A stretch of 12,566 bases of DNA, from positions 1-12,566 of the forward strand of contig JAJRTI010000386.1 of the NCBI GenBank assembly GCA_024278415.1, given 5' to 3'. A program made the translations under genes and the position numbers. This document shows positions 1 to 12,566 of the stretch, in pieces (position 1 is the stretch's first letter; every line of letters starts with the position of its first letter). Below the pieces are notes generated by a model. The model worked only from the letters and a program-made list of their open reading frames with translations, was not told the DNA's origin and searched no databases. This stretch comes from Planctomycetota bacterium (GTDB lineage: Bacteria; Planctomycetota; Brocadiia; JAJRTI01).

Positions 1-299
1 TGAGATGCCTGAGTTGCCACGACGGCACCGTCGGCCCGGATGCCTCCTTCCGCGTGGGGCGCCGCAAATCCGTGGATTTATCCAAGAGCCATCCCATCGG
101 TGTGCGCTATCCAGTGAACGGCGTGGGCCGTCGAGGCCAATCTCGATACAAGTCGATTTCGCTTCTCGACAAACGCATCCGTCTGTTCGATGGCAAAGTC
201 GGCTGTGGCAGTTGCCACAACCCGTATTCGCGAGGCAAGCTGTTCCTCGTCATCGACAATAACCGTAGCCGGCTCTGCCGCGCTTGCCATAAGATATAA
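1..299 (+). CDS. Multihaem cytochrome c, doubled-CXXCH type (3' fragment)
   Basis: This is the C-terminal 98 residues of a secreted c-type cytochrome; the reading frame is open to the left edge (codons from base 3), so the start and signal peptide lie outside. Three CXXCH haem-attachment motifs are visible: CLSCH at residues 2-6 of the fragment, then CGSCH and CRACH near the end. The stretches CLSCHDGT and DLSKSHPIGVRYP closely parallel CLSCHDGT and DLSGGHPLSFVYD in the tetrahaem cytochrome at 1971-2711, and the spacing to the last two haems is similar. The two are therefore paralogues, and a fourth haem motif is expected just off the window. The internal ATG at 54 falls after the first CXXCH and is not the start. 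It is the first visible gene of the cytochrome operon, 28 bases ahead of the next gene. Electron-transfer role follows from the family; partners are inferred. Confidence 0.9.
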   Translation, partial: RCLSCHDGTVGPDASFRVGRRKSVDLSKSHPIGVRYPVNGVGRRGQSRYKSISLLDKRIRLFDGKVGCGSCHNPYSRGKLFLVIDNNRSRLCRACHKI

Positions 300-316
300 C
301 ATTACTGCACTGCATA

Positions 317-320
317 GAGG
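317..320 (+). promoter_or_regulatory. Ribosome binding site deciding the start at 328
   Basis: AGAGG (316-320) sits 7 bases before ATG 328. It supports starting the membrane protein there rather than at the in-frame ATG 190, which would overlap the preceding cytochrome by 110 bases. Confidence 0.5.
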
Positions 321-327
321 CGAGGTC

Positions 328-966
328 ATGGAACAAAAACGCGTTGCCAGGCGCTACTTTGTGAGACGCAGGTTCCAGGGGTGGTTCATCGCCGCCTTCT
401 GCATCCTCGTCTGCGCGGGCGGCGCCGCCGCGGCCGTAGTGACCGGCTTCGCGGTGAACGAAGCCCTCGGACGGGCCATGTACCGCTCCCACTACTTCGA
501 ACAGTCCACGGGAGCCATCGTCATGCCCGTGCTGATCAAAGTCAACGCCATCGCGGCGCTGGTCGTGATCGTGGGCGAAGTCGGCCTCGCCGCGTGGGTC
601 TTCTCCCGTGCGTCAAAGGCCGTGGACAGGCTCTGCGCACGGTTTGCCCAGTGGCAAGCCCACGTCGAGCAGGGCACGACCGAAGCGGCGCCGGGAGAAC
701 CGGAGAGCGCAGCCGACTCCCGTGCTCAGGATTGGATCGGCGACCTGGAGCAAGCTATCTGCGTCGCCAACGAGGCGCTTCACGAAACCTACCACGAGGC
801 CGCGGCCGCGGCCAAACAGGCCGCCACGGCCGCAGACCGGCTTCATGCCCGTCTATGCTCCGGAGCCCCTAGCGAAGCGGACGATCCCGATCTGGACGCT
901 CTGTCAAACAGCCTCGCCGACATCAGCGAGCACCTGACCCAGCACACGCGGGAAACCGATGCTTAA
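328..966 (+). CDS. Two-helix inner-membrane protein with cytoplasmic helical tail (chemoreceptor-like N-terminus)
   Basis: A 212-residue protein I cannot name with certainty. A very basic N-terminus (RRYFVRRRFQ, residues 9-17) is followed by a membrane segment at about 19-42, a short external loop of about 25 residues (MYRSHYFEQSTG), and a second membrane segment at about 66-92. A basic stretch and an Ala/Glu-rich helical region at about 135-176, probably coiled coil, follow. By the positive-inside rule both ends are cytoplasmic. The layout resembles the sensor half of methyl-accepting chemotaxis or HAMP proteins, but there is no recognisable HAMP or signalling domain and the loop is tiny. 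From memory, short proteins with a similar basic YFxxxxFQ start accompany multihaem cytochrome clusters in Geobacter-like bacteria; I could not check this. Its last 8 bases overlap the next start (ATGCTTAA), implying translational coupling. An anchor or sensor for the cytochrome assembly is a guess. Confidence 0.75.
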   Translation: MEQKRVARRYFVRRRFQGWFIAAFCILVCAGGAAAAVVTGFAVNEALGRAMYRSHYFEQSTGAIVMPVLIKVNAIAALVVIVGEVGLAAWVFSRASKAVDRLCARFAQWQAHVEQGTTEAAPGEPESAADSRAQDWIGDLEQAICVANEALHETYHEAAAAAKQAATAADRLHARLCSGAPSEADDPDLDALSNSLADISEHLTQHTRETDA

Positions 967-2032
967 CTGCCGCCTACCGGACACGAACGCCGCCTGCCAC
1001 GGCCGATACGGCCGCTCGGCATGGGCGCTGGGGCTCGTGCTGTTGGCGACGGGCTGCGCAACCACGCCACAACACCCCTGGCAGGCCACGTCCGAGGAGA
1101 TCGTCTGGCCTCTCCCGCCCAGCCCGCCGCGCATACGTTACGAGGGATCCATCGCCACCGGCCAGTTGCTCAAGTTCAGGAAAGGCTTCTTGTCATGGAT
1201 GCTCGATACGTTCGCGGGCAAACCCGAGGTCGGGTTGCGCGTCCCCCATGGCCTAGCGACGGACACCGAGCTTCTGGTGATCGCCGACTCTGCAAGCGGC
1301 AGCCTGCACATGTTTGACTTGCGCCATCGGCGCTACCGCCAAGTCGAGTCGGCCGGCAAGGTGCGCCTCCGATGCCCGATTGGCGTCGCCCTCGACGGCC
1401 AAGGCGGAGTGTTCGTCACCGATTCCGCCCTTGCGCGGGTCTTCCATCTGTCCCGAAAGGGCAAACTGCTCGGCGAAATCCAGGGCCCGTTCCTGCGCCC
1501 CACGGGCCTCGCATACGACCAAGTTCGCGGCCAACTGCACGTGGTGGATACCGGAGCCCACGTGGTGCTCACGTTCGAGCAGGGCCCCCGCGGCTTCACC
1601 CAGACGCGAGTGCTTGGCAAGCGCGGCGAAACCCTCGGCATGTTTAACTTCCCCACACACATCGCCCTCGACGCCCAGGCGAACCTATACGTTTCCGACT
1701 CGCTCAACTTCCGCATCCAGACCTTCAATGCCGACGGCAGGCGCATCGGCACGTTCGGACAAGTGGGAGATGGAGTGGGCGATTTCGCCAAACCCAAAGG
1801 CGTGGCCGTCGACAAGCACGGCCACGTGTACGTTGTGGATTCGCTGTTTGACGTAGTGCAGATATTCGACCAGAAAGGCCGGTTCCTGCTCAGCTTCGGC
1901 GGCAGCGGCCGAGCTGGCGGGAGCCTCTGGCTGCCCACCGGTATCTGTACGGATGAAGAGGATAGGATCTATGTGGCTGATTCAGGCAACCAACGCGTTC
2001 AAGTGTTTCGGCTGTTGCCGCAGAGCAACTAG
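959..2032 (+). CDS. NHL-repeat beta-propeller lipoprotein
   Basis: A 357-residue secreted lipoprotein. The N-terminus has basic residues, a hydrophobic stretch (AWALGLVLLATG) and a lipobox ending at Cys33 (ATGC), so it is probably cleaved by signal peptidase II and lipidated. The mature part holds about six NHL repeats from about residue 95 to the end, each with the pattern P-x-G-[IVL]-A-x-D then Y/V-V-x-D-S and [VI]-Q-x-F. The clearest are PKGVAVDKHGHVYVVDS and PTGICTDEEDRIYVADSGNQ. Such repeats fold into a six-bladed propeller that usually binds proteins or ligands rather than catalysing. The residue after the lipidated Cys is Ala, not Asp, which by the E. coli rule favours the outer membrane. 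It overlaps the upstream gene by 8 bases and its 3' end runs into the tetrahaem cytochrome gene. A scaffold or docking role for the neighbouring cytochromes is inferred. Confidence 0.9.
   Translation: MLNCRLPDTNAACHGRYGRSAWALGLVLLATGCATTPQHPWQATSEEIVWPLPPSPPRIRYEGSIATGQLLKFRKGFLSWMLDTFAGKPEVGLRVPHGLATDTELLVIADSASGSLHMFDLRHRRYRQVESAGKVRLRCPIGVALDGQGGVFVTDSALARVFHLSRKGKLLGEIQGPFLRPTGLAYDQVRGQLHVVDTGAHVVLTFEQGPRGFTQTRVLGKRGETLGMFNFPTHIALDAQANLYVSDSLNFRIQTFNADGRRIGTFGQVGDGVGDFAKPKGVAVDKHGHVYVVDSLFDVVQIFDQKGRFLLSFGGSGRAGGSLWLPTGICTDEEDRIYVADSGNQRVQVFRLLPQSN
1957..1962 (+). promoter_or_regulatory. Candidate ribosome binding site for the tetrahaem cytochrome
   Basis: AGAGGA lies 8 bases before ATG 1971, inside the 3' end of the NHL coding region. 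It is the best Shine-Dalgarno-like match among the three possible starts (1953, 1971, 2040). Because it lies in codons for Glu, Glu and Asp it could also be chance. Confidence 0.35.
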
Positions 2033-2711
2033 GCTTGCGATGGCCAGCGCTGGGATAGTGCTGTGCCTGGGGCCTGGCCTGCTCCGCGCCGCGGGCAATC
2101 AAAGCATTGTCAACACGAAACACAACCTCTCGGTCAGCGGCCCTGGTCCCATCAAGTCGCCGACCGAGACCCGGATCTGCATCTTCTGCCACACGCCGCA
2201 CAATGCACAGCCCGCCGCACCGCTGTGGAACCGGGAGCTTAGCGCAGTCTCGCACTACGAAATGCCCTGGAGCCCCACGATGCAGGCGTACTCGTCCTCC
2301 GTGTCGGCGCCCCAGCCCGATGGAGCCTCCAAGCTCTGTCTGAGTTGCCACGATGGCACTATCGCCTTGGGCTCGGTGCTCAGCCGCAGCGAACCGATTC
2401 CGATCTCCGGCGGCCCGACCATTCCGCCTACGTCGAAGGGCTATCTTGGCACAGACCTCTCGGGCGGCCACCCCCTCTCCTTTGTGTACGACGACGCCTT
2501 GGCCTTGGCCAACAACGCGGCCGGCGATATGACGCTGCGCCTGCCGTCAACTCTCAACGACCCAGACGTGAAACTCGACAAACAAGGCAAGGTGCAGTGC
2601 ACCACCTGCCACGATCCACACGACGATGGCAACTACGGATCAGGCGGCGTGCCTCATTTCTATGTGAAACCGGACTGGAGTGCAGTGTGTTTCACCTGCC
2701 ACGATCAATGA
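1971..2711 (+). CDS. Tetrahaem cytochrome c, doubled-CXXCH type (possible OmcE-like)
   Basis: A 246-residue exported cytochrome with four CXXCH motifs at residues 70-74 (CIFCH), 123-127 (CLSCH), 210-214 (CTTCH) and 240-244 (CFTCH). Extra histidines nearby (HTPH, DPHDD, SGGHPLS) could be distal haem ligands. Start choice is uncertain. ATG 1971 has AGAGGA 8 bases upstream and gives a signal peptide with RR and R before the hydrophobic core, but overlaps the NHL gene by 62 bases. ATG 2040 lies 7 bases after the NHL stop but gives a signal peptide with no positive charge. ATG 1953 lacks a ribosome site. Its stop overlaps the next start (ATGA, 2708-2711). It is a paralogue of the fragment at 1-299. 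The spacing of HTPHNA, CLSCHDGT and HPLSFVYD recalls, from memory, small tetrahaem cytochromes such as the filament-forming OmcE. That assignment is a hypothesis. Confidence 0.92.
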   Translation: MWLIQATNAFKCFGCCRRATRLAMASAGIVLCLGPGLLRAAGNQSIVNTKHNLSVSGPGPIKSPTETRICIFCHTPHNAQPAAPLWNRELSAVSHYEMPWSPTMQAYSSSVSAPQPDGASKLCLSCHDGTIALGSVLSRSEPIPISGGPTIPPTSKGYLGTDLSGGHPLSFVYDDALALANNAAGDMTLRLPSTLNDPDVKLDKQGKVQCTTCHDPHDDGNYGSGGVPHFYVKPDWSAVCFTCHDQ

Positions 2712-3754
2712 GACGCCGTCGCCCATGCGCCGCCGGGTTGGCGCTCTTGGCCTTCGTGATCGTCGCCCCCCGCGGCGGGCTCTGCCAGTCCGGCGCGTTC
2801 AGCGGCAGCGCGCACGGCAACCGCTCACTGCTGCCCATGGGCTGCAAGACTTGCCACGTGGGCCACGGCATCCCCCAAAGCAGGATGATGGACAATACCG
2901 TGCCTGCCGTATGCGTCAAATGCCACGGAGATGCAACGGGACGAGCCGCCGCGCGCAGCGAAGGCATACTCATCAACTCAGACCACCTCAAGAACGTCGA
3001 AGCCGAATTCCTCAAGACGTCGAGACACCCGGTGAATACCACGGGGGCCGGCGTGTCAACCATCTCCTGCACCGACTGCCACCCGCCCCACTGGATCCTC
3101 ACCGCAGCCAACGGCGGCGTGCAAGGCGGTTCTGGCACGGATGTCAAACGGCTCGTGAACTCGCGCGGCCAGTCGCAGCCCGAATACGAACTCTGCTACA
3201 AGTGCCATGGCTCCACTCCACCCATTGGCACGGCCGCGGTGAACATCAAGCGGCTCTTCCTCACCTCCAACCCGTCGTTCCATCCCGTACAGACCACGGG
3301 CCGCAATAGCGACGTGCCCAGCCTCATCAGCCCTCTCACCGAGCAGAGCATCATCTCCTGCACGGACTGCCACGGCAGCGACCAAGCAAGCGGACCACGC
3401 GGCCCTCACGGCTCCATCTACAGCCCCATCCTGAAGGCGCACTACGAGACTGACAGTGGGAAACCGGAGAGCAGCTACCAGTACGAACTCTGCTACCGAT
3501 GCCACAGCCAGTCATCCATACTGGGCGACCAGAGCTTCAGCAAACACAGAAGGCATATCGAAGGCACGAATGCGTCGTGCTTCGCTTGCCACAACGCCCA
3601 CGGCAGTACGGAGTACACGCATCTAATTGATTTCGACGAAAATGTCGTATTCGCCAACAGAATGGGCCAACTCTGGTTCCGAGACAACGGTTACAGGAGC
3701 GGCTCGTGTAGCCTGCTCTGCCACGGCAAGAATCACAAGAACAAGCGTTACTGA
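2708..3754 (+). CDS. Octahaem cytochrome c with a terminal CX3CH motif
   Basis: A 348-residue exported cytochrome. It begins MRRRRP and has a hydrophobic core to about residue 20, a standard Sec signal peptide with cleavage near residues 25-28. Seven CXXCH motifs lie at residues 46-50, 69-73, 121-125, 163-167, 218-222, 262-266 and 291-295, and an eighth, non-standard CSLLCH (CX3CH) at 334-339. The motifs come in pairs with matching context (CTDCH at 121 and 218; ELCYKCH and ELCYRCH after a conserved YELCY), so an internal module of roughly 100 residues appears duplicated. The start ATG overlaps the previous stop as ATGA and has no visible ribosome site, so translation is probably coupled. The longer open frame upstream (from 2345) is antiphase to the tetrahaem gene and is not coding. 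Probable role: multihaem electron conduit in the periplasm or at the cell surface. Confidence 0.93.
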   Translation: MRRRRPCAAGLALLAFVIVAPRGGLCQSGAFSGSAHGNRSLLPMGCKTCHVGHGIPQSRMMDNTVPAVCVKCHGDATGRAAARSEGILINSDHLKNVEAEFLKTSRHPVNTTGAGVSTISCTDCHPPHWILTAANGGVQGGSGTDVKRLVNSRGQSQPEYELCYKCHGSTPPIGTAAVNIKRLFLTSNPSFHPVQTTGRNSDVPSLISPLTEQSIISCTDCHGSDQASGPRGPHGSIYSPILKAHYETDSGKPESSYQYELCYRCHSQSSILGDQSFSKHRRHIEGTNASCFACHNAHGSTEYTHLIDFDENVVFANRMGQLWFRDNGYRSGSCSLLCHGKNHKNKRY

Positions 3755-3756
3755 CC

Positions 3757-3763
3757 AGAGGAG
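3757..3763 (+). promoter_or_regulatory. Strong Shine-Dalgarno for the GTG-initiated TPR lipoprotein
   Basis: AGAGGAG ends 9 bases before GTG 3773 and follows the octahaem stop (TGA, 3752-3754) directly. It is the clearest ribosome site in the window and supports the GTG start. Confidence 0.6.
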
Positions 3764-3772
3764 CAACATTCC

Positions 3773-4441
3773 GTGAGCCTTTCTTCTGACACCCCAGGCT
3801 GGCGCCGCACCGCACTGGGCCTCGCGGCAGCCTGCGGCATGCTGTTCGCCGCATGTGGGCCAAAGGAGCCAACCCCGTCGCCAGCGTCGAACTCGGCTCC
3901 CAGCGCGGGCAAGCCCAGACAGACTCTATCGGCCGCCCAGCGCGCGCAGCACATCGCCAAAACGGAAGCCGCGCTGAAGAAACAGATTCTCCTTAACCCA
4001 AACGACGTAAAAGCGCACCTGGCGCTCGGCAACTTGTACTACGATACCAACCGCCCCCATCTGGCGGTGGCCGAGTACCAGATCGTGCTCAAGACGGCCC
4101 CCTGCGACCCCAACGTGCGCACCGACCTGGGCACGTGCTACAAACACATGAACCAATGGGACAAGGCGCGCGCCCAGTACGAGCAAGTGATCAAGAAGCA
4201 CCCCAACCACATCATGGCCACGTTCAATCTGGCGGTGGTGCTCGAACACCAAGGAGACTTGCGGCACGCTGCGGAGCTGTGGGAGCGCGCGGCCTTCCTC
4301 AACCCCGATTCGCACGTGGCCACTGTCGCGCTCAAGTACGCCACCTCCGCGCGTAAGGCCGCAGCCAAACGCAAGTCAGCCAACGCCAAGCCAGGCGCCA
4401 GCACGCCCCGCACCTCCCCCACCACACCAGTTGCAGACTAA
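3773..4441 (+). CDS. TPR-repeat lipoprotein
   Basis: A 222-residue protein starting with GTG. The N-terminus has WRR, a hydrophobic segment and a lipobox LFAAC with Cys28 as the lipidation site, followed by a Pro/Ser-rich linker (about 30-50). Three tetratricopeptide repeats run from about 78 to 180: the A helices LALGNLYYDT, DLGTCYKHMNQ and NLAVVLEHQGD are each followed by a B helix with the typical A-x-x-x-Y/W and a closing L/I-x-P (NPND, APCDP, HPNH, NPDS). A Lys/Ala/Thr/Pro-rich tail follows. TPR domains bind other proteins, so this is a likely assembly or scaffold factor for the cytochromes on either side; the partner is inferred. It lies 18 bases after the octahaem gene and 8 bases before the undecahaem gene, clearly in the same operon. 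Confidence 0.9.
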   Translation: MSLSSDTPGWRRTALGLAAACGMLFAACGPKEPTPSPASNSAPSAGKPRQTLSAAQRAQHIAKTEAALKKQILLNPNDVKAHLALGNLYYDTNRPHLAVAEYQIVLKTAPCDPNVRTDLGTCYKHMNQWDKARAQYEQVIKKHPNHIMATFNLAVVLEHQGDLRHAAELWERAAFLNPDSHVATVALKYATSARKAAAKRKSANAKPGASTPRTSPTTPVAD

Positions 4442-4449
4442 CTATTGAC

Positions 4450-5523
4450 ATGAAAGCCGCCGACAAACACGTATTCATCCTGGCCGCCCTGCTCTGCGCG
4501 TGCGCGCTGGCGCGGCCCGCGGCCGCGGCCGATGCCCCTAAAGTGCTCAAGCCCGACCAGTTCTGCAACAGTAAAGGATGCCATCCGGACATCACGGAAG
4601 AGAAGTACATTCACGGCCCTATCAACGTCGGTGAATGCAAGAAGTGCCACAAGCCACAGGGGGATAAGCACGAGTTCACCACGGCCAGCACGAGCACAAA
4701 GATGTGCACCCAATGCCACGAGCAACTCAAGATGAAAAAAGTCGTGCACAAGGCGTTTGAGGAGGGGGGCTGCATCGCATGCCACGACCCCCACCAAGGC
4801 GAAAGCAAAATGTTCCTCACAGCGAGTGGCTCGGAACTGTGCGAGGACTGCCACGACGAGTTGGTCGAGAAGGCCCAAGAGGCCACGACGGTCCACAAGG
4901 CCGTGCTCGACGAGAAAAGAGCGTGCCTCACTTGCCACAACCCTCACACCAGCGACTACCCCAAGCTGCTCGCGGCGCCGGTAATGGACGTCTGCCTCAA
5001 TTGCCATGACAAGAAGATCAAGACCGAATACCGCACACTGCCGGATCTGAAAAGCTTCCTGGCTTCGAAAAAGTTCGTGCACGGACCGATCAAGGAGGGC
5101 AAGTGCGGCGACTGCCACTTGGTCCACGGCAGCGCGTACTTCGCCATGCTCAAGGCCGAATACCCCGCAACGTTCTACGCACCCTTCAGCCCCGGCATAT
5201 ACGCACTGTGCTGGCTGTGCCACAAGGAGACACGGGTCGAAGAACAGCACACGATGAAGCTGACGAATTTCCGAAATGGCGACAGGAACCTCCACTACCT
5301 TCACGTCAACAAGAAGATCAAGGGCCGCACGTGCCGGGCCTGTCACGCGACGCACGCCAGCAACACCGCTCTCCACATCCGCAAGTCCGTGCCTTTCGGC
5401 AGCAGCGGCTGGGCCATCCCCATCCGGTATACCAAGACCAAGAACGGCGGCACGTGCGCCTCCGGATGCCACCGGCCCAAGACCTACGACCGAGAGAACC
5501 CTGTCCAGTACGATACGGAGTGA
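4450..5523 (+). CDS. Undecahaem cytochrome c with CX4CH and CX3CH motifs
   Basis: A 357-residue exported cytochrome with a signal peptide (MKAADK, hydrophobic core, cleavage near RPAAAA-DAP, about residue 27). Nine CXXCH motifs lie at residues 63, 86, 108, 131, 159, 182, 219, 254 and 295. Two extra motifs are a CX4CH near the N-terminus (CNSKGCH, 39-45) and a CX3CH near the C-terminus (CASGCH, 336-341), giving eleven likely haems, one per 32 residues. HGPIxxGxCxxCH occurs twice (residues 55-67 and 211-223), which points to internal duplication. The DPH and NPH sequences after CXXCH are typical of doubled-CXXCH/NapC-NrfH-like proteins. No ribosome site is visible before ATG 4450; the preceding stop is only 8 bases away, so coupling is likely. 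The basic, Lys-rich character differs from the tetrahaem protein and suits a periplasmic shuttle or conduit (inference). Confidence 0.93.
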   Translation: MKAADKHVFILAALLCACALARPAAAADAPKVLKPDQFCNSKGCHPDITEEKYIHGPINVGECKKCHKPQGDKHEFTTASTSTKMCTQCHEQLKMKKVVHKAFEEGGCIACHDPHQGESKMFLTASGSELCEDCHDELVEKAQEATTVHKAVLDEKRACLTCHNPHTSDYPKLLAAPVMDVCLNCHDKKIKTEYRTLPDLKSFLASKKFVHGPIKEGKCGDCHLVHGSAYFAMLKAEYPATFYAPFSPGIYALCWLCHKETRVEEQHTMKLTNFRNGDRNLHYLHVNKKIKGRTCRACHATHASNTALHIRKSVPFGSSGWAIPIRYTKTKNGGTCASGCHRPKTYDRENPVQYDTE

Positions 5524-5532
5524 TCCCCGGCC

Positions 5533-6687
5533 ATGATTGACATCTCCCGACTCCTCTGTGGCTCCACTTCAGCATCCGAGCATCTTCGCTACCGGCCCGA
5601 CGTCCAGATCGACCGCAAGCCGGTCATCGTCTGGAACTCCACCAACCAGTGCAACCTGCGCTGCGCGCACTGCTATGCCCACGCACAACAATGCCCCTCT
5701 GCGGACGAGTTCTCCACCGAAGAAGCCCGCGCGCTCATCAACGACGTGGCCGCATACGGGTCGCCCGTCATGCTCTTCTCCGGCGGCGAGCCCACCCTAC
5801 GAAGCGACCTCGTCGACCTCGGCGCCTACGCGGTGGATAGGGGCATGCGAGCCGTCATCTCCACCAACGGCACGTTGATCTCTCCGCAACTCGCCCGGGC
5901 AATCAAGCAGGCAGACTTCAGCTACGTCGGCGTCAGCCTCGATGGCCGCCCGGAAACCAACGACAAATTCCGAGGCGCACCGGGCGCCTACGAGCGCGCT
6001 CTGACTGGCATACGCAACTGCCTCGACGCCGGCGTCAAAGTCGGCCTGCGGTTCACCATCAGCCGGCGCAACGCCCAGGACATCGAGGCAATCTTCGACT
6101 TGCTTGAGGAGGAGAGTATCCCCCGCTGCTGCATCTACCATCTCGTCTATGCCGGCCGCGGCAGCAGCCTGATGTCTGAAGACCAATCGCATGAAGAAGC
6201 TCGGCAGAGCCTGGACACCATCTTCCGGCGCACGCAACAGATGTTCCAAGCCGGCTCGCCCCGGGAAATCCTGACCGTCGACAACCATGCCGACGGCCCG
6301 TATTTGTATCTGACACTTCAGCGAGAAGACCCGCAACGCGCGGAAAAGGTTCTGGAGCTGCTCCGCTGGAATGGAGGCAACAGCTCCGGCATCGGCATCG
6401 CCTGTGTCGACCACCGCGGCGACGTGCATCCGGACCAATTCTGGTCGCACTACACGCTTGGCAACGTGCGCGAGAGGCCCTTCTCGGAGATCTGGTCGGA
6501 CGAGAGCGATCCCGTCCTCCATGGGCTTCGGCATAGGAAAGACCTGATCAAGGGTCGGTGTGCAGCTTGCCGGTTCTTCGACGTGTGCAATGGTAATATG
6601 CGCGTGCGCGCCGAAGCTGCACTCGGCGACCTCTGGGCCTCCGCGCCGGCCTGCTATCTTACGGACGAAGAGATTGGAATCGCATAA
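5533..6687 (+). CDS. ahbC: 12,18-didecarboxysirohaem deacetylase (radical SAM, AhbC/NirJ family)
   Basis: A 384-residue cytoplasmic radical SAM enzyme. It has the family N-terminus (MIDISRLLCG), the cluster-binding CX3CX2C at Cys40, Cys44 and Cys47, SGGEPT at 83-88 and STNGT at 110-114. The C-terminal auxiliary-cluster region has Cys291, Cys343, Cys346, Cys352 and Cys374, set in VDHRGDVHPDQFW, GNVRERPFSEIW and NMRVRAEAALGD. This whole pattern is that of AhbC and the related NirJ. AhbC removes the two acetate side chains of 12,18-didecarboxysirohaem to give iron-coproporphyrin III in the sirohaem-dependent haem pathway. NirJ acts in haem d1 synthesis, but the immediate neighbour AhbD and the absence of other nir genes favour AhbC. 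It starts 9 bases after the undecahaem gene and overlaps ahbD. The setting suggests haem supply for the cytochromes. Confidence 0.88.
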   Translation: MIDISRLLCGSTSASEHLRYRPDVQIDRKPVIVWNSTNQCNLRCAHCYAHAQQCPSADEFSTEEARALINDVAAYGSPVMLFSGGEPTLRSDLVDLGAYAVDRGMRAVISTNGTLISPQLARAIKQADFSYVGVSLDGRPETNDKFRGAPGAYERALTGIRNCLDAGVKVGLRFTISRRNAQDIEAIFDLLEEESIPRCCIYHLVYAGRGSSLMSEDQSHEEARQSLDTIFRRTQQMFQAGSPREILTVDNHADGPYLYLTLQREDPQRAEKVLELLRWNGGNSSGIGIACVDHRGDVHPDQFWSHYTLGNVRERPFSEIWSDESDPVLHGLRHRKDLIKGRCAACRFFDVCNGNMRVRAEAALGDLWASAPACYLTDEEIGIA

Positions 6688-7756
6688 CACCCCGCCCCCG
6701 CCCCTCCGGATCGTGTTCTGGGAGACCACCTCCGCCTGCAACCTCAGGTGCATCCACTGCCGCGCCACGGCTAGCCCTGAGCCCGCTGCAGGCGAAATCA
6801 CCTCGGAAGAGGGCCTCGCGTTCATCGACGCCCTGGCCGAGTTCGCGTCGCCGATCCTGATCCTCAGTGGCGGCGAGCCGCTCGTGCGGCCCGACATCTT
6901 CGAACTCGCAAAACACGCCACCGACGCCGGCCTCCGCACCGCCCTGGCCACCAACGGCACCCTTCTCACCCGCGACCTGGCCCGCCAGGTCAAACAGGCC
7001 GGTATTCGCCGCGTGAGCGTGAGCCTCGACGGCCCCACCCCGGAGATCCACGACGCGTTCCGCGGCATCCATGGCGCCTTCGACGCCGCGCTCACGGGCC
7101 TGCGGCATCTCCGCGATGCGGGTGTGCCCTTCCAGATCAACATGACCGTGGCCCAACACAACATGGGCTGCCTCGACGCGGTCCTGGCGACGGCCAAGGA
7201 GCTGGGAGCCATCGCCGTTCATCTGTTCCTCCTCGTGCCCGTGGGCTGCGGACTCGAGATCGCCGAGGAGCAAATGATCACTCCAGACGAGTACGAGCGC
7301 GTTTTGCATTGGGCCTGCGACCGCATGCAAGACGACTCGATCGAGCTGAAGGTCACCTGCGCACCACACTACTTCCGGGTCATGCGCCAGCGGGGGGCTC
7401 TGCCCAAGCCGAAACCAAGCGCCCCACATGGCGGACACCCGCACGGCATGACCGCCACGACAAAGGGCTGCCTGGGTGGCCAGACCGTGTGCTTTGTGTC
7501 CTCCACGGGCGACGTCTTCCCCTGCGGCTATCTGCCGGTGAGCGCCGGCAACATTCGCCAGACGCCAATCCGACACATCTGGGAGCAGGCGGAGCCCTTC
7601 AAATGTCTCCGCGATCCAGGGCAGCTCAAGGGCAAATGCGGCCAGTGCGAGTATCGGCGCATCTGCGGCGGATGCCGGGCCAGAGCTTATGCGGCCTCCG
7701 GGGACTTCCTCGAAGCCGAGCCCTACTGCGTGTACACACCCAAGGCCGGAGCATGA
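6674..7756 (+). CDS. ahbD: Haem b synthase from Fe-coproporphyrin III (radical SAM, AhbD)
   Basis: A radical SAM protein of 360 residues if started at TTG 6674. It carries CX3CX2C at Cys22, Cys26 and Cys29 (ACNLRCIHC), LSGGEPLVRPD at 64-74 and ATNGTLLT at 92-99. A SPASM-like C-terminus has Cys266, 273, 284, 322, 325, 331, 334 and 352 (CGQCEYRRICGGCRARAYA). VFWETTSACNLRCIHCRA, VSLDG, FQINMTV and HLFLLVPVG match AhbD, which oxidatively decarboxylates the two propionates of Fe-coproporphyrin III to the vinyls of haem b. Start: the frame is open to ATG 6560, deep inside ahbC, but family members begin just before the PPLRIVFWE motif. TTG 6674 gives MESHNTPPPPLR and a 14-base overlap with ahbC. A His-rich insert at about 251-258 (PHGGHPHG) is variable in the family as far as I know. 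It pairs with AhbC to finish haem synthesis. Confidence 0.88.
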   Translation: MESHNTPPPPLRIVFWETTSACNLRCIHCRATASPEPAAGEITSEEGLAFIDALAEFASPILILSGGEPLVRPDIFELAKHATDAGLRTALATNGTLLTRDLARQVKQAGIRRVSVSLDGPTPEIHDAFRGIHGAFDAALTGLRHLRDAGVPFQINMTVAQHNMGCLDAVLATAKELGAIAVHLFLLVPVGCGLEIAEEQMITPDEYERVLHWACDRMQDDSIELKVTCAPHYFRVMRQRGALPKPKPSAPHGGHPHGMTATTKGCLGGQTVCFVSSTGDVFPCGYLPVSAGNIRQTPIRHIWEQAEPFKCLRDPGQLKGKCGQCEYRRICGGCRARAYAASGDFLEAEPYCVYTPKAGA

Positions 7757-7758
7757 AC

Positions 7759-7799
7759 GCCCCCCATGCGCCTTCGGCGCTCAAAGGCCGTGCGGGGGC
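7759..7799 (+). other. GC-rich hairpin between ahbD and the ankyrin gene
   Basis: GCGCC (7768-7772) and GGCGC (7776-7780) form a 5-pair stem with a TTC loop. GCCCCC (7759-7764) can pair with GGGGGC (7794-7799) around it. No T-run follows, so it is not a typical terminator. It lies between the ahbD stop and ATG 7831 and could be a leader structure or a processing site. In DNA this GC-rich it may be chance, and it would be coding if translation starts at 7753. Confidence 0.25.
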
Positions 7800-7830
7800 T
7801 TGCTCCACGCGCACAGAAAGACGATCGACT

Positions 7831-9681
7831 ATGCACAGAGGGCTGACCTCCGGTGCGCCCACAGCAATCGTGATTGCTGCCGCAATCCTGGCGGCGACCG
7901 CGCACGCCGCTGGCCTCCCGCCACTCCACCAAGCCGCCAAACTGAATGATACTCAAGGGATCCAGGAGGCTCTTGACGAGGGCGCCGACATCAATGGCAA
8001 ATACAAGGGCGAAACCGCACTGCACGTGGCGGCTCGAGGTGGCCACGAGGAGGCCGTCCAATTCCTGATAGCCAAGGGCGCCCAACTGAACGCCACTGAC
8101 CGATACGGCCGGACGCCCCTCCATGTCGCGGCATGGAAAGGCCATGACAAGCTTGTGGATCTACTTGCCCGCAGCGCGGCCGACGCCAACGCGCAAGACA
8201 AGAGGGGCGCAACGCCGCTGCATCTGGCCGCCACCCGCGGCCACGTCGAGGTCGCCAAGCTCCTCCTGGCCAAGGGCGCCAAGTGCGACGCGGTGGATGC
8301 ACTGGGCAAGACACCCCTCCACGTCGCCGCAGAACATGGGCAGCAAGCGGTGGCGCAACTGCTGCTGAATAGCGGGGCCAAAGTCGGGCTGAAGCAGGAG
8401 TTCGGACGGACCCCTCTGCACTATGCGGCCCGAGGAGGCTACACCCAACTGGCGGCTCTGCTCCTCGATAAAGGAGCCGCAATCGATCCGCGCGACCGGT
8501 CGGGTTTCACCCCCCTTCACTATGCGGCGCGGGAAGGCCATCTGGAGACGGCGCAACTGCTCGTCGAGAAGGGAGCCGACGTTCGCGCCAAACAGAAGTT
8601 TGGCTGGACGCCTCTGCATTGCGCCGCGCGCGCGGGCCACGCCGACATCGCCGCGCTACTGTTGGCCCATGGCGCGCCCATTGATGCCAAGCAGAACCAA
8701 GGCAGAACGCCCCTACACTGTGCCGCAAGGGAAGGGCGCCAGGATGTAGTGCGGCTCCTGCTGGCCAAGGGCGCGAATGCTGACGCACGATCGCAAGACG
8801 GCAAGACGCCGCTGATGATCGCGGCCGAGCATGGCCAGCGAGACACGGCCGAACTCATGCTGGCCACCGGGCCCGATGTGGACGCCAAGCGAACCGACGG
8901 CTGGACCCGCCTGCACTGGGCTGCCTGTTTCGGGCTCGACGAGGAGGTGCGAACGCTCTTGGCCAAGGGAGCGAATGCCAACGCGAAGACAGACAGGGGC
9001 TCGACACCGCTCCATCTGGCCTCGGAGTATGGCCGGCAAGCCGTGGCAAAGTTGCTGCTCGCCGGGGGCGCCCATGTCGACGCTCGCGATCTCGATGGCA
9101 TGACCCCCCTCCACCTGGCGGCCCAGTCGGGTGAGCATGACGTTGCCGCGGTCCTACTCAGCAAGGCCGCACGCTGTGACGCCAAGGACCGGCAGGGCTC
9201 GACACCGCTCCATCTGGCGAGCAGGTTTGGCAACGACGAGACCGCGGCCTTGCTTATTGCCCAGGGGAGTGACGTGAACGCCCGAGATTCCCAGGGCATG
9301 ACCCCCTTGCACGAAGCGGCGAAAAACGGCCGCCTCAAGGCAGCGGAACTCATCATGGGAAAAGGAGCGCTCATTGATGCCACAGATCAGAACGGCATGA
9401 CTCCGCTGTACATGGCGGCCCAGTTCGGGCACAAAGACATCGTCAAAAAGCTATTGGACCATGGGGCCAAAGTCGACGTGAGGGCAAACGATGGCTCGAC
9501 CCCGTTGCACGCAGCCGTCGAGTACAGCCACGAAGACGTCGCACTGCTGCTGGTGGCCCACGGGGCCGATGTCAACGCCAAGAGGAAGGACCAACTCTCG
9601 CCTCTCGACTTGGCGCGAAAACAAAGGCGGGGCGACCTCGCCGAACGTCTCGAGCACCAAACCAAGAAGGCAGCAGACTAG
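7831..9681 (+). CDS. Exported ankyrin-repeat solenoid protein
   Basis: A 616-residue protein with a signal peptide (MHRGLTSG, hydrophobic core, AHA-AG cleavage near residue 27). The rest is 17 consecutive ankyrin repeats of 33 residues plus a C-terminal capping repeat (QLSPLDLARKQRRGDLAERL). Nearly every repeat has G-x-TPLHxAAxxG, then LLLxKGAxxxAxD, so the periodicity is near perfect with no linker or catalytic domain. Ankyrin solenoids bind proteins; exported ones in bacteria are less studied. The start is a choice: ATG 7753 overlaps the ahbD stop (ATGA) but would put 26 unneeded residues before the signal peptide, while ATG 7831 gives a normal one. Repeats 12-13 and 14-15 look like a duplicated pair (24 identical bases exactly 198 apart). 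It is the last gene of the block and may be a large periplasmic scaffold for the cytochromes (inference). Confidence 0.9.
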   Translation: MHRGLTSGAPTAIVIAAAILAATAHAAGLPPLHQAAKLNDTQGIQEALDEGADINGKYKGETALHVAARGGHEEAVQFLIAKGAQLNATDRYGRTPLHVAAWKGHDKLVDLLARSAADANAQDKRGATPLHLAATRGHVEVAKLLLAKGAKCDAVDALGKTPLHVAAEHGQQAVAQLLLNSGAKVGLKQEFGRTPLHYAARGGYTQLAALLLDKGAAIDPRDRSGFTPLHYAAREGHLETAQLLVEKGADVRAKQKFGWTPLHCAARAGHADIAALLLAHGAPIDAKQNQGRTPLHCAAREGRQDVVRLLLAKGANADARSQDGKTPLMIAAEHGQRDTAELMLATGPDVDAKRTDGWTRLHWAACFGLDEEVRTLLAKGANANAKTDRGSTPLHLASEYGRQAVAKLLLAGGAHVDARDLDGMTPLHLAAQSGEHDVAAVLLSKAARCDAKDRQGSTPLHLASRFGNDETAALLIAQGSDVNARDSQGMTPLHEAAKNGRLKAAELIMGKGALIDATDQNGMTPLYMAAQFGHKDIVKKLLDHGAKVDVRANDGSTPLHAAVEYSHEDVALLLVAHGADVNAKRKDQLSPLDLARKQRRGDLAERLEHQTKKAAD

Positions 9682-9692
9682 CCCAGATTCCG

Positions 9693-9714
9693 CAGGAAAC
9701 ACCGTTTTCACCTG
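9693..9714 (+). terminator. Possible weak terminator hairpin after the ankyrin gene
   Basis: CAGG-AAAC (9693-9700) pairs with GTTT (9704-9707) and CCTG (9711-9714) around an ACC loop with a three-base bulge, 11 bases after the stop. No clear T-run follows (TCATTC), so intrinsic termination would be weak. Confidence 0.25.
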
Positions 9715-9769
9715 TCATTCAGTGTCTATCTGAACTCGTTGGAAAGATTCCCCTCGGAGTGGAGGAAAT

Positions 9770-9791
9770 GGGGTCGTCAAGGGCAGACCCC
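9770..9791. terminator. Possible bidirectional hairpin between convergent genes
   Basis: GGGGTC (9770-9775) and GACCCC (9786-9791) form a perfect 6-pair inverted repeat with a 10-base spacer, midway between the + strand ankyrin stop and the - strand fdhD stop. On the - strand the stem is followed by ATTT, so it may help end fdhD transcription. The rest of the 152-base gap shows nothing I recognise. Confidence 0.3.
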
Positions 9792-9833
9792 GGCGGGAAC
9801 CACCCGGTGGACGCGCATGCTCCATGCCCTTCG

Positions 9834-10661
9834 TTAGCCGTCCATCTCCACGCGGTCGGGGAAGGTGTACACGTTCAGGCGGGAGCCCCGCGCAAAGCCC
9901 ACTAGGGTGAGGCCGTGCTTCGCCGAGAGGCGCACCGCGTGCGCGGTGGGTGCGGATCGGGAGGCCAGCACGGGCACGCGCTGACGCACGGCCTTGAGCA
10001 CCATCTCGGAGCTGATACGGCCCGTGGTGACCAACACCCCCTGCGACAGATCCCGGCCCTCCATGAGCGCGCGGCCCACGATCTTGTCCACCGCATTGTG
10101 CCGCCCAATGTCCTCGAAGAAGATGCAGATCGCCTGGCCGTCACTGAATGCGGCCTGATGGGTACACCCCGTAAGCTTGAACACCGGCGCCATCGAGCGC
10201 AGTGAGCGCATGCACTCGAGAATGTGTGAGGCCCGCACGCGAAACCCGCTTTCGAGCGCGTCGTTGACCAGGACCGGCAACTGCGACCCGTACAAGTTTG
10301 CCCCACAGGTGGACGTCACGATAAGCTGCATGGCCCGGCGGATCTGGTCGTCGTCGACGTCCATCTCCAGCAGGACTCGCTTGCCGGCCCGGTCCTCAGC
10401 CACAGAGCGTATGTCGTCGAGGCTCTTTGCCAGCGACAGGTAAGCCACGAACCCCAGGGCCAGCTCCTGCAACCCGCTCGGCGTGCAGAGCACCGTGACC
10501 AGTTTCGCCCCGTTGACGTAGATCGCGACTGGCCACTCCTCGGCGACCCGGTCCGTCGACCGGGTAGGGCTGACCACGTCGACTTCGAGTGTGCCGTTGG
10601 CCACGCCTTCGTCCGCGAGATCGAGCGGCCCCCCGGCCGCGTCTCGTCGCTTCGCGGTCAT
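9834..10661 (-). CDS. fdhD: Formate dehydrogenase sulfurtransferase/chaperone FdhD
   Basis: A 275-residue cytoplasmic protein of the FdhD family. FdhD takes sulfur from a cysteine desulfurase (IscS in E. coli) and passes it to the molybdenum bis-MGD cofactor, which activates formate dehydrogenase. Family signatures are visible: EEWPVAIYVNG (41-51), GFVAYLSL (70-77), FFEDIGRHNAVDKIVG (181-196) and VTTGRISSEMVLKA (211-224), with APTAHAVRLSAKHGLTLVGFARG near the end in the usual place. The sulfur-carrying loop reads TSTCGANLYG: Cys119 is present, but the second cysteine of the E. coli CXXC (Cys121/Cys124) is replaced by Asn122. The start ATG overlaps the fdhA stop (ATGA on the - strand) and is preceded by AAGGTGA, so it is translationally coupled to its client enzyme. 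Confidence 0.95.
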   Translation of the reverse strand: MTAKRRDAAGGPLDLADEGVANGTLEVDVVSPTRSTDRVAEEWPVAIYVNGAKLVTVLCTPSGLQELALGFVAYLSLAKSLDDIRSVAEDRAGKRVLLEMDVDDDQIRRAMQLIVTSTCGANLYGSQLPVLVNDALESGFRVRASHILECMRSLRSMAPVFKLTGCTHQAAFSDGQAICIFFEDIGRHNAVDKIVGRALMEGRDLSQGVLVTTGRISSEMVLKAVRQRVPVLASRSAPTAHAVRLSAKHGLTLVGFARGSRLNVYTFPDRVEMDG

Positions 10662-12566
10662 GCACTCACCTTCGCTACCTGCACGGCACAGACTTTGTAC
10701 TCAGGTATCTTGGCGATGGGGTCGAGCGCGGCGATGGTGAGCGCGTTGGCCGGGCTCTCGTGAAAGTGGAAGGTCATGAACACCGTGCCCTGCGCCACCA
10801 TGGGGGTGACGTTGGCTCGGACCTCGATCTGCCCGCGCCGTGAGCGGACCTGCACGCGCTGTCCGTCGTCGACGCCGAGCGTGTCCGCGTCCGAGGGGTT
10901 GATCTCGATTTCGCCATCCGGCGCGAGTTGGTCGAGCACGTCGCACCGGCGCGTCATGGTGCCGGTGTGCCAGTGCTCCATCCGCCGGCCGGTGGTGAGC
11001 AGGAGGGGGTACTCGTCGTCGGGCAGCTCCTGGGCCGGGATGAATTCGACCGGGTGGAACTTGCCAAGGCCGCGCTTGAATTCGCCCACGTGGAGGATCG
11101 GTGTGCCAGGGTGGGAAGAGTCGGGGCAAGGCCATTGCAGGCCCGCGCCATGGAGCCGGTCGTACGTCATGCCGCCGTAGATAGGCGAGACCGAAGCGAT
11201 CTCGTCCTGAATCTCAGAGGGGCTACTGAAGTGCATGTCGCAGCCCATACGCCGCGCGACATCGGCCACGATTCCCCAGTCTGGCCGCGCCTGCCCGGGC
11301 GGCGTGATCGCCTTGCGCACGCGTTGCACGCGGCGCTCGGTGTTCGTGAAGCAGCCCTCCTTCTCGGCAAAGCACGCGGCCGGCAACACCACGTCGGCCA
11401 GCTCCGCGGTCTCCGTCATGAAGATGTCCTGCACGACGAGGAACTCCAGCCGCTCCAGGCCCTTGCGCACGTGGTTGATGTCCGGGTCGGACAGCATGGG
11501 GTTCTCGCCCATGGCGTAGAGCGCCTTGACCGATCCTTCGGCCGCGGCGTTCATGATCTCGACCACGGTCAGGCCGATCTTGGGCGAGAGCTTGGCGCCC
11601 CAGGCTTTCTCAAACTGGGCTTGCACCTCGGGGTCGTCGACCTTTTGGTAGCCGGGGTATACGTTGGGCAGTGCGCCGAGGTCGCAGGCGCCTTGCACGT
11701 TGTTTTGGCCCCGCAGCGGGTTCACGCCGCTGCCCGGCTTGCCCAGGTTGCCGGTGAGCATCGCCAGGTTGACCACCGACAGCACGTTGTCCGTGCCGGT
11801 GGTGTGCTGGGTGATGCCCATGGAGTAGTAGATGGCGGCGGCGCGGGCTTGCGCGTACATGCGGGCCGCGGCCTCGATGTCCTGCGCCGGCACGCCGGTG
11901 ATGCGTTCGGCCATCTCAGGCGTGTAGGGCTCGACGGCCTTGGCCAACTCGTCAAAGCCCTCTGTGCGCTCTTGCACGAACGCTTCGTCGTGGAGCCGGT
12001 CGCGGATGATGACGTGCATCATCGCGTTCAGCAGGGCCACGTCCGTGCCGCTGCGCTGGCGCAGGTGCAGGTCGGCGAAGCGCACAAGATCGATCTTGCG
12101 AGGGTCGGCGACGATGAGCTTCGTCTTGCCCTCGCGAGCCGCGGTCTCGATGGCCATGCCCATGACGGGGTGGTTTTCGAGCGTATTAGATCCGATGACG
12201 AAGATGACATCGCCGTCGCCAATCTCGTCGATGGAGTTGGTCATGGCCCCGCTGCCGAACGCGCGGGCCAGCCCGGCCACAGTGGACGCGTGGCAGAGCC
12301 GCGCACAGTGGTCGACGTTATTGGTGCCGACGCAGGCGCGCATGAACTTCTGCATCACGTAGTTGTCTTCGTTCGTGCACTTGGCCGACGAGAGGCCGGC
12401 GAGGCTGTCGGGGCCATGCGCCGCCTTGATCTCGCCCAGCCGCTTGGCCACGAGGTCGAGGGCCTCATCCCACGTCGCCTCTTCGAACGTTCCGTCGCGC
12501 TTGATGAGGGGCTTGGTGAGCCTCTCCGGATGGCCGACGAAGTCGTATCCGAACTTGCCCTTCACA
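10658..12566 (-). CDS. fdhA: Formate dehydrogenase catalytic (molybdopterin) subunit, cysteine form, N-terminus missing
   Basis: The C-terminal 635 residues of a molybdenum or tungsten bis-MGD formate dehydrogenase; the frame stays open at the right edge. The first visible codon, GTG, fits an internal Val in the conserved VKGKFGYDF, so it is not a start, and the N-terminal [4Fe-4S] domain lies outside. The active-site region NVDHCARLCHASTVAG matches E. coli FdhF around Sec140-His141, but the residue here is Cys91 (TGC, 12293-12295), followed by His92. The catalytic Arg is Arg285 in RGQNNVQGACD, at nearly the same distance as in FdhF. The dinucleotide-binding domain spans about 518-628 and includes TTGRRMEHWHTGTMTRR and LDPIAKIPEYKVCAV. 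These motifs favour soluble FdhF/FdsA-type enzymes over other molybdopterin oxidoreductases. It oxidises formate to CO2, or possibly the reverse; the electron acceptor subunit is not in view. fdhD follows with a 4-base overlap. Confidence 0.95.
   Translation of the reverse strand, partial: VKGKFGYDFVGHPERLTKPLIKRDGTFEEATWDEALDLVAKRLGEIKAAHGPDSLAGLSSAKCTNEDNYVMQKFMRACVGTNNVDHCARLCHASTVAGLARAFGSGAMTNSIDEIGDGDVIFVIGSNTLENHPVMGMAIETAAREGKTKLIVADPRKIDLVRFADLHLRQRSGTDVALLNAMMHVIIRDRLHDEAFVQERTEGFDELAKAVEPYTPEMAERITGVPAQDIEAAARMYAQARAAAIYYSMGITQHTTGTDNVLSVVNLAMLTGNLGKPGSGVNPLRGQNNVQGACDLGALPNVYPGYQKVDDPEVQAQFEKAWGAKLSPKIGLTVVEIMNAAAEGSVKALYAMGENPMLSDPDINHVRKGLERLEFLVVQDIFMTETAELADVVLPAACFAEKEGCFTNTERRVQRVRKAITPPGQARPDWGIVADVARRMGCDMHFSSPSEIQDEIASVSPIYGGMTYDRLHGAGLQWPCPDSSHPGTPILHVGEFKRGLGKFHPVEFIPAQELPDDEYPLLLTTGRRMEHWHTGTMTRRCDVLDQLAPDGEIEINPSDADTLGVDDGQRVQVRSRRGQIEVRANVTPMVAQGTVFMTFHFHESPANALTIAALDPIAKIPEYKVCAVQVAKVSA

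Follow-up and report, generated by a model that had tools for sequence, protein, structure and literature searches.

A contig from a Planctomycetota bacterium (GTDB lineage Bacteria; Planctomycetota; Brocadiia; JAJRTI01), JAJRTI010000386.1 of assembly GCA_024278415.1, was analysed over positions 1 to 12,566 of its forward strand (the window). Between positions 3 and 9681 it carries ten genes, all on the plus strand, in the order cytA, mem, NHL, cytB, cytC, TPR, cytD, AhbC-like, AhbD-like and ankyrin, which raises the question of what a row of four multihaem cytochromes, repeat proteins and predicted haem-synthesis enzymes may build. A preliminary description had proposed an electron conduit with its own assembly scaffolds and haem supply, in a combination that matched no described system known to it. 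By alignment, the core of the row proves to be a split form of a pair found in several phyla, consisting of an NHL protein gene and a gene for a cytochrome with eleven CXXCH motifs, cytB being homologous to the N-terminal half of the latter and cytC to its C-terminal half. The window probably represents the right-hand part of an outer-membrane electron conduit resembling the Uet system, its function being judged from homology only; the conduit proposed in the preliminary description is supported to this extent.

The NHL protein and its two-gene undecahaem partner

The NHL beta-propeller lipoprotein (959..2032, plus strand; PF01436, 107.2 bits; lipobox identified by eye) resembles UetH and UetI. 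When it was searched against 5.8 billion proteins, 7995 candidates were scored and 4184 had an E-value of 0.001 or lower; among the best 120 of these, 30 are 55–62% identical (one named Planctomycetes) and the rest form a broad family at 41–50%, bar one short piece at 64%. Across 84,980 species genomes, 37 loci were found, to which 20 were added, 19 chosen by a UetJ hit and one by AhbC. In this set of 57 loci (numbered with the prefix L), the NHL gene adjoins a UetJ-type gene in 46 and the pair is absent in 11; the pair of L031 has an N-half-type cytochrome only. In 24 of the 37 species-scan loci, the gene after NHL encodes a single fused cytochrome with 10–11 CXXCH motifs.

In the window, two genes take the place of this fused cytochrome directly after the NHL gene. 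CytB (1971..2711, plus strand), with four CXXCH motifs, aligns to the first 200–245 residues of the fused 11-CXXCH proteins, and cytC (2708..3754, plus strand), with seven CXXCH motifs and one CX3CH motif, aligns to the remainder; each appears by eye to have its own signal peptide. The split state was also found in L001 (Planctomycetota), L008 (Nitrospira), L010 (Nitrospiraceae), L012 (Nitrospirae) and L027 (Krumholzibacteriia). In a midpoint-rooted tree of 46 rows (40 fused and 6 split, the window included), calculated with FastTree only, the split forms fall into one clade (support 0.999), which includes one fused protein, from L022 (Nitrospirae). Identity between the window and L001 is 59% for the NHL protein and 67% for cytB, while the TPR protein and cytD are 48% and 46% identical to the products of the genes in the same places.

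All 27 aligned rows, the window included, keep the CX3CH motif of cytC. Histidine columns kept in at least 45 of the 46 rows number eight in the N-terminal half and sixteen in the C-terminal half, enough for 12 bis-histidine haems. Because the CX3CH motif of the C-terminal half is invariant, the so-called undecahaem protein is likely to be a 12-haem protein. A predicted structure of cytC had a predicted local distance difference test (pLDDT) score of 50 and was discarded.

The N-terminal half is of the OmcE type. CytB matches PDB entry 7tfs, identified as OmcE in a passage of PMC12954529, with an E-value of 6.4e-25 over nearly its whole mature length, and the four CXXCH motifs and all eight conserved histidines are present. 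A profile of 22 fused proteins matches the same entry with an E-value of 6.2e-49, covering positions 11–211 only. CytB also matches PDB entry 9yuq (E-value 6.5e-20), which contains 16 chains named only as a putative multiheme cytochrome c, OmcE-like. One difference from OmcE should be kept in mind: cytB corresponds to one half of a larger cytochrome. Since haem 2 of OmcE is completed by a histidine from the adjacent subunit, as described in a passage of PMC12203936, the OmcE-like N-terminal half would be expected to dock onto another such subunit. A literature search pairing OmcE with undecaheme led to an undecaheme passage concerning OmhA; the other undecaheme or Tenderia passages retrieved do not contain OmcE.

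Likeness to Uet and to other conduits

The Uet parts listed in the relevant passage of a Gallionellaceae pangenome study (PMC10734462) are the undecahaem UetJ, the tetrahaem UetA, the trihaems UetDEG, the peptidyl-prolyl isomerase (PPIase) UetB, the NHL proteins UetHI and the barrel UetC, and a Tenderia metatranscriptome paper (PMC5371394) has, in the part consulted here, a TPR gene (Tel_16525) beside the trihaems. With these clusters of Tenderiales and Gallionella the window shares the NHL protein, the 11-CXXCH cytochrome and a TPR lipoprotein (3773..4441, plus strand; PF07719, 60.3 bits; lipobox identified by eye); barrel, tetrahaem and trihaem genes occur in its relatives. In L134 and L135, of the same class as L013 (Sedimenticola), the order is tetrahaem, trihaem, trihaem, barrel, NHL, 11-CXXCH. 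The window differs in that two genes encode the 11-CXXCH protein and the row also holds cytD, AhbC/AhbD, mem and ankyrin; the barrel, the PPIase and the trihaems are not in the window. No complete counterpart of UetA, UetDEG or UetB was found in the window, whose left side is cut; in L001, a separate 4-CXXCH gene lies further to the left. We call the locus Uet-like, a likeness drawn from published gene descriptions. The novelty first suggested for the combination is not supported for its core, as NHL, undecahaem, TPR, porin and tetrahaem parts belong to or accompany Uet as described in the passages cited (PMC10734462, PMC5371394). The system type appears to be a known one, and what would be new here is the division of the undecahaem protein between two genes, the haem-synthesis genes alongside and the planctomycete-like lineage.

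The preliminary description had seen no porin in the window and guessed that one may lie to the left. The first point is confirmed and the second is supported by related loci: a beta-barrel hidden Markov model gave no match to any window frame of 40 residues or more, and a homologous beta-barrel gene lies upstream of the pair in 29 of 41 loci, the nearest relative included (the 41 are the pair loci with 2 kb or more of upstream DNA; five of the 46 have less). With this null result, and with no room left by the genes, a porin inside the window is ruled out. Because so many related loci carry the upstream barrel gene, that of the window's organism is probably off the contig, to the left. The model of this barrel had MtrB as its top match, only just above other barrels, and by fold the relatives' barrel is nearest to 6r2q_B.

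CytD (4450..5523, plus strand) has nine CXXCH motifs, one CX4CH and one CX3CH; by eye, both unusual sites recur in its L001 relative. Its nearest solved chain is 6r2q_A (E-value 1.7e-7), which we take to be MtrA, although the molecule name in the entry reads otherwise. It scores 49.0 bits against the MtrC/MtrF domain II/IV model PF22113 (cut-off 30). Likeness to the MtrAB/MtrC and MtoAB conduits (PDB 6r2q) thus extends to both cytD and the relatives' barrel, but cytD differs in its 11 motifs and in scoring 73.7 bits against the DmsE/MtrA decahaem family model TIGR03508, below the cut-off of 192.2. Relatives of cytD with 12–14 CXXCH motifs and 32–46% identity are present in 9 of 12 planctomycete loci with the NHL-UetJ pair.

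The contig end at base 1 cuts cytA (3..299, plus strand), the C-terminal part of a multihaem cytochrome, in which three CXXCH motifs are seen. Its closest relatives found have 6–7: it is 40% and 42% identical to 7-CXXCH proteins in L020 and L159, and 41% and 38% identical to 6-CXXCH proteins in L125 and L130. Such proteins occur near NHL-UetJ-type loci.

Resemblances to other published clusters are looser. In Geoalkalibacter ferrihydriticus, a published locus (PMC12016550) combines an OmcE homologue and MtoA-like cytochromes with two NHL proteins and so shares OmcE-type and multihaem genes beside NHL genes, and cytochrome clusters of Desulfovibrio ferrophilus (PMC9769857) share multihaem genes beside NHL genes. 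The passages describing these two mention no haem-synthesis or ankyrin gene, and the likeness is drawn from their descriptions. Some porin-cytochrome clusters of type PCC4 are reported from planctomycetes (PMC5566968), but the PCC3 and PCC4 cytochromes have other sizes and the word NHL appears nowhere in that text; their five-helix inner-membrane protein was not recognised by eye in the window. The terms NHL, undeca and Uet are absent from the text of PMC11475568, and the part of PMC11936953 consulted has nothing on gene clusters.

Haem genes and the remainder of the row

The two radical SAM enzymes point to the sirohaem-dependent haem route. The first (5533..6687, plus strand), a predicted 12,18-didecarboxysirohaem deacetylase, has AhbC as its best-scoring family, with 591.8 bits against TIGR04546 (cut-off 650), and the second (6674..7756, plus strand, assuming a TTG start), a predicted haem b synthase, has AhbD, with 476.2 bits against TIGR04545 (cut-off 500). 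Both thus stay below the NCBI cut-offs, and they differ from the known route in being located in a cytochrome row. Among AhbC relatives, those of genomes G115 (717.4) and G042 (706) pass the TIGR04546 cut-off and those of G001 (446.8) and G388 (523.2) fail it. The AhbC-like protein of the window is 60% identical to one from a genome of the same class as that of L001, which, together with the identities of the NHL protein and cytB to L001, points to a planctomycete-like lineage.

Among 392 sampled genomes of planctomycetes, the phylum of L001, 22 gave a UetJ hit (E-value of 1e-40 or lower; up to three candidates scored per genome), 63 an AhbC hit (1e-100 or lower; up to four candidates) and 6 both. 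With only 6 of the 22 UetJ genomes also giving an AhbC hit at these thresholds, haem supply as a fixed part of Uet-like loci was rejected. In three of these six, AhbC is among or near multihaem genes: in G001 it has an 11-CXXCH gene to one side and, to the other, genes with 3 and 11 CXXCH motifs, and its contig lacks the UetJ; in G115 a 13-CXXCH gene is found about 5 kb from AhbC-AhbD; and in G185 AhbC is divergent from a 10-CXXCH gene, with 0.3 kb between the open frames. The fetched DNA of the other three (G030, G034 and G388) has no such neighbour. Of the 17 AhbC loci whose genomes gave no UetJ hit (L131, L141–L156), none has another gene with at least two CXXCH motifs in the fetched flanks (gene calls of at least 80 residues), a comparison confounded by the fact that the five of those genomes that were checked hold only 0–1 paired-CXXCH matches.

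Haem-attachment genes were sought by tblastn with ResB, CcsA and CcmF from three of the same loci, and haem synthesis with AhbC from the window. ResB and CcsA, of cytochrome c maturation system II, lie directly or within about 1 kb after UetJ in L003, L004, L005, L007, L013 and L015, and ResB is about 4 kb away in L125; CcmF, the system I haem lyase, is 0.3–1.2 kb from the Uet-like cluster in the planctomycete loci L119, L120, L121 and L126. AhbC is present in pair loci L117 and L118. The attachment calls in L003, L121 and L125 were checked with Pfam, and weak matches in L030 (CcsA, 31%, 61.6 bits) and L028 (AhbC/AhbD, 54 bits) were left out. In all, one or other of these genes is near 13 of the 46 pair loci, which gives some support to a coupling of haem genes to conduit loci. 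Against this weigh the relatedness of the loci, 6 of the 13 being from one beta/gammaproteobacterial clade, and the lack of a random-locus control. The haem supply first proposed for this system therefore survives in a weaker form, as a recurrence of haem-attachment or haem-synthesis genes near related loci and not as a fixed component.

The gene inventory, order and strand of the preliminary description stand, as does its figure of 26 haem sites. CXXCH motifs number 4 in cytB, 7 in cytC, 9 in cytD and at least 3 in the 5'-truncated cytA, 23 in sum, to which CSLLCH in cytC and CNSKGCH and CASGCH in cytD are added; in 1000 shuffles of each of the four cytochromes, the mean CXXCH count ranged from 0.009 to 0.114 and the maximum was 2, and the recurrence of the unusual sites in relatives shows that these, too, are no accident. 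The junctions, from cytA to ankyrin, are +28, -8, -62, -4, +18, +8, +9, -14 and +74, as first given, although the last gap may not be real, because the ankyrin frame has a possible ATG start at 7753, four bases of overlap with the ahbD stop; by eye, AAGG sits seven bases upstream of it. If that start is used, the genes leave just 28, 18, 8 and 9 bases free within positions 3 to 9681. A single sigma-70-like match was found in the whole window, on the minus strand (1.7 expected by chance); searches of the window for tRNAs and for Rfam families at gathering score gave nothing.

The exported ankyrin-repeat protein (7753..9681 or from 7831, plus strand; PF00023, 16 stretches) is a doubtful member of the system. 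It had been taken for a scaffold, but tblastn finds it in none of the 57 related loci, and a conserved scaffold was rejected on this ground; its most likely role is that of a passenger or of a helper in the periplasm. The small membrane protein mem (328..966, plus strand) is a near-orphan with two hydrophobic segments by eye. It has no Pfam or NCBIfam match at an E-value of 0.001. Its only database relative is 74% identical, and it weakly matches (27%, 43.5 bits) the gene after the cytA-like 7-CXXCH gene in L020.

Two minus-strand genes (9834–12565) converge on the cytochrome row. One encodes FdhD, scoring 201.9 bits, and the other formate dehydrogenase alpha, scoring 864.9 bits; each score exceeds the cut-off of its model (TIGR00129 for FdhD). 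A formate dehydrogenase alpha gene is also about 5 kb from UetJ in L025. The electron donor may be formate.

Proposed arrangement and alternatives

In the conduit that we favour, the system would cross the outer membrane through a large beta-barrel whose gene would lie beyond the left end of the contig, with cytC inside this barrel or next to it. The NHL protein would hold cytB, which would be the outer contact or a base for OmcE-like subunits. CytA and cytD would be further, periplasmic carriers, although cytD may lie outside, because it matches the MtrC/MtrF domain II/IV model. The NHL and TPR proteins could be docking or assembly parts. Electrons would then pass between the periplasmic carriers and the surface via cytC in the barrel, with cytB outermost, and AhbC and AhbD may make haem b from didecarboxysirohaem, meeting the demand of at least 26 sites in step with expression.

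How much of the row belongs to this conduit is a matter on which a narrower reading deserves serious weight, even if we lean somewhat against it: the system may be NHL-cytB-cytC-TPR-cytD only, with ahbC, ahbD, mem and ank as chance neighbours or housekeeping genes on the same transcript. The five core genes are together in L001 as in the window, in partial agreement with the co-occurrence first expected, while the other four are absent from its 18.7-kb contig, an AhbC of that genome being on another contig among other multihaem genes; ank recurs in no related locus and mem in one, weakly; 16 of the 22 UetJ-bearing planctomycetes gave no AhbC hit at the threshold used, and in half of the genomes with both hits AhbC has no multihaem neighbour within the fetched DNA. 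Against this reading, AhbC does have such neighbours in the other half (G001, G115 and G185), and ResB/CcsA and CcmF sit by Uet-like loci elsewhere. It is very improbable that these cytochromes work for a respiratory reductase of the periplasm or a nitrogen-cycle process instead of extracellular electron transfer. In favour of such a role, cytC matches NrfB-like and NapC/NirT models, weakly and below the cut-offs; against it, no catalytic multihaem subunit was recognised in the row with Pfam and NCBIfam, and a large outer-membrane barrel accompanies the module in most loci with enough upstream DNA.

An OmcE-like filament as the main product, with cytB polymerising, cytC anchoring and the NHL and TPR proteins assembling it, seems to us rather unlikely. 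The homology of cytB to 7tfs and to the 16-chain 9yuq over nearly the full mature length, with all eight histidines, would fit such a filament, as would the separate tetrahaem protein in the window's lineage and the sharing of a histidine between OmcE subunits (in the passage of PMC12203936 on haem 2). However, cytB is orthologous to the N-terminal half of the fused protein and not to the separate tetrahaem gene of many loci. Within the conduit reading, we tentatively put forward, as an idea with more chances of being wrong than right, that the Uet undecahaem protein joins an OmcE-type filament domain to an octahaem domain and is a base that plugs a nanowire into the outer-membrane barrel; in the window's lineage the free tetrahaem protein could polymerise, and the operon would carry its own haem-making enzymes.

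To our knowledge, how surface cytochrome filaments are attached to outer-membrane conduits is not settled. A conserved protein that combines an OmcE-type half with an octahaem half, and that has a barrel gene beside it across many lineages, offers a concrete candidate for the filament-conduit joint, and the natural split form in the window lets both halves be tested apart. The recurring haem-making or haem-attaching neighbours suggest that haem supply may be tied to the building of the conduit.

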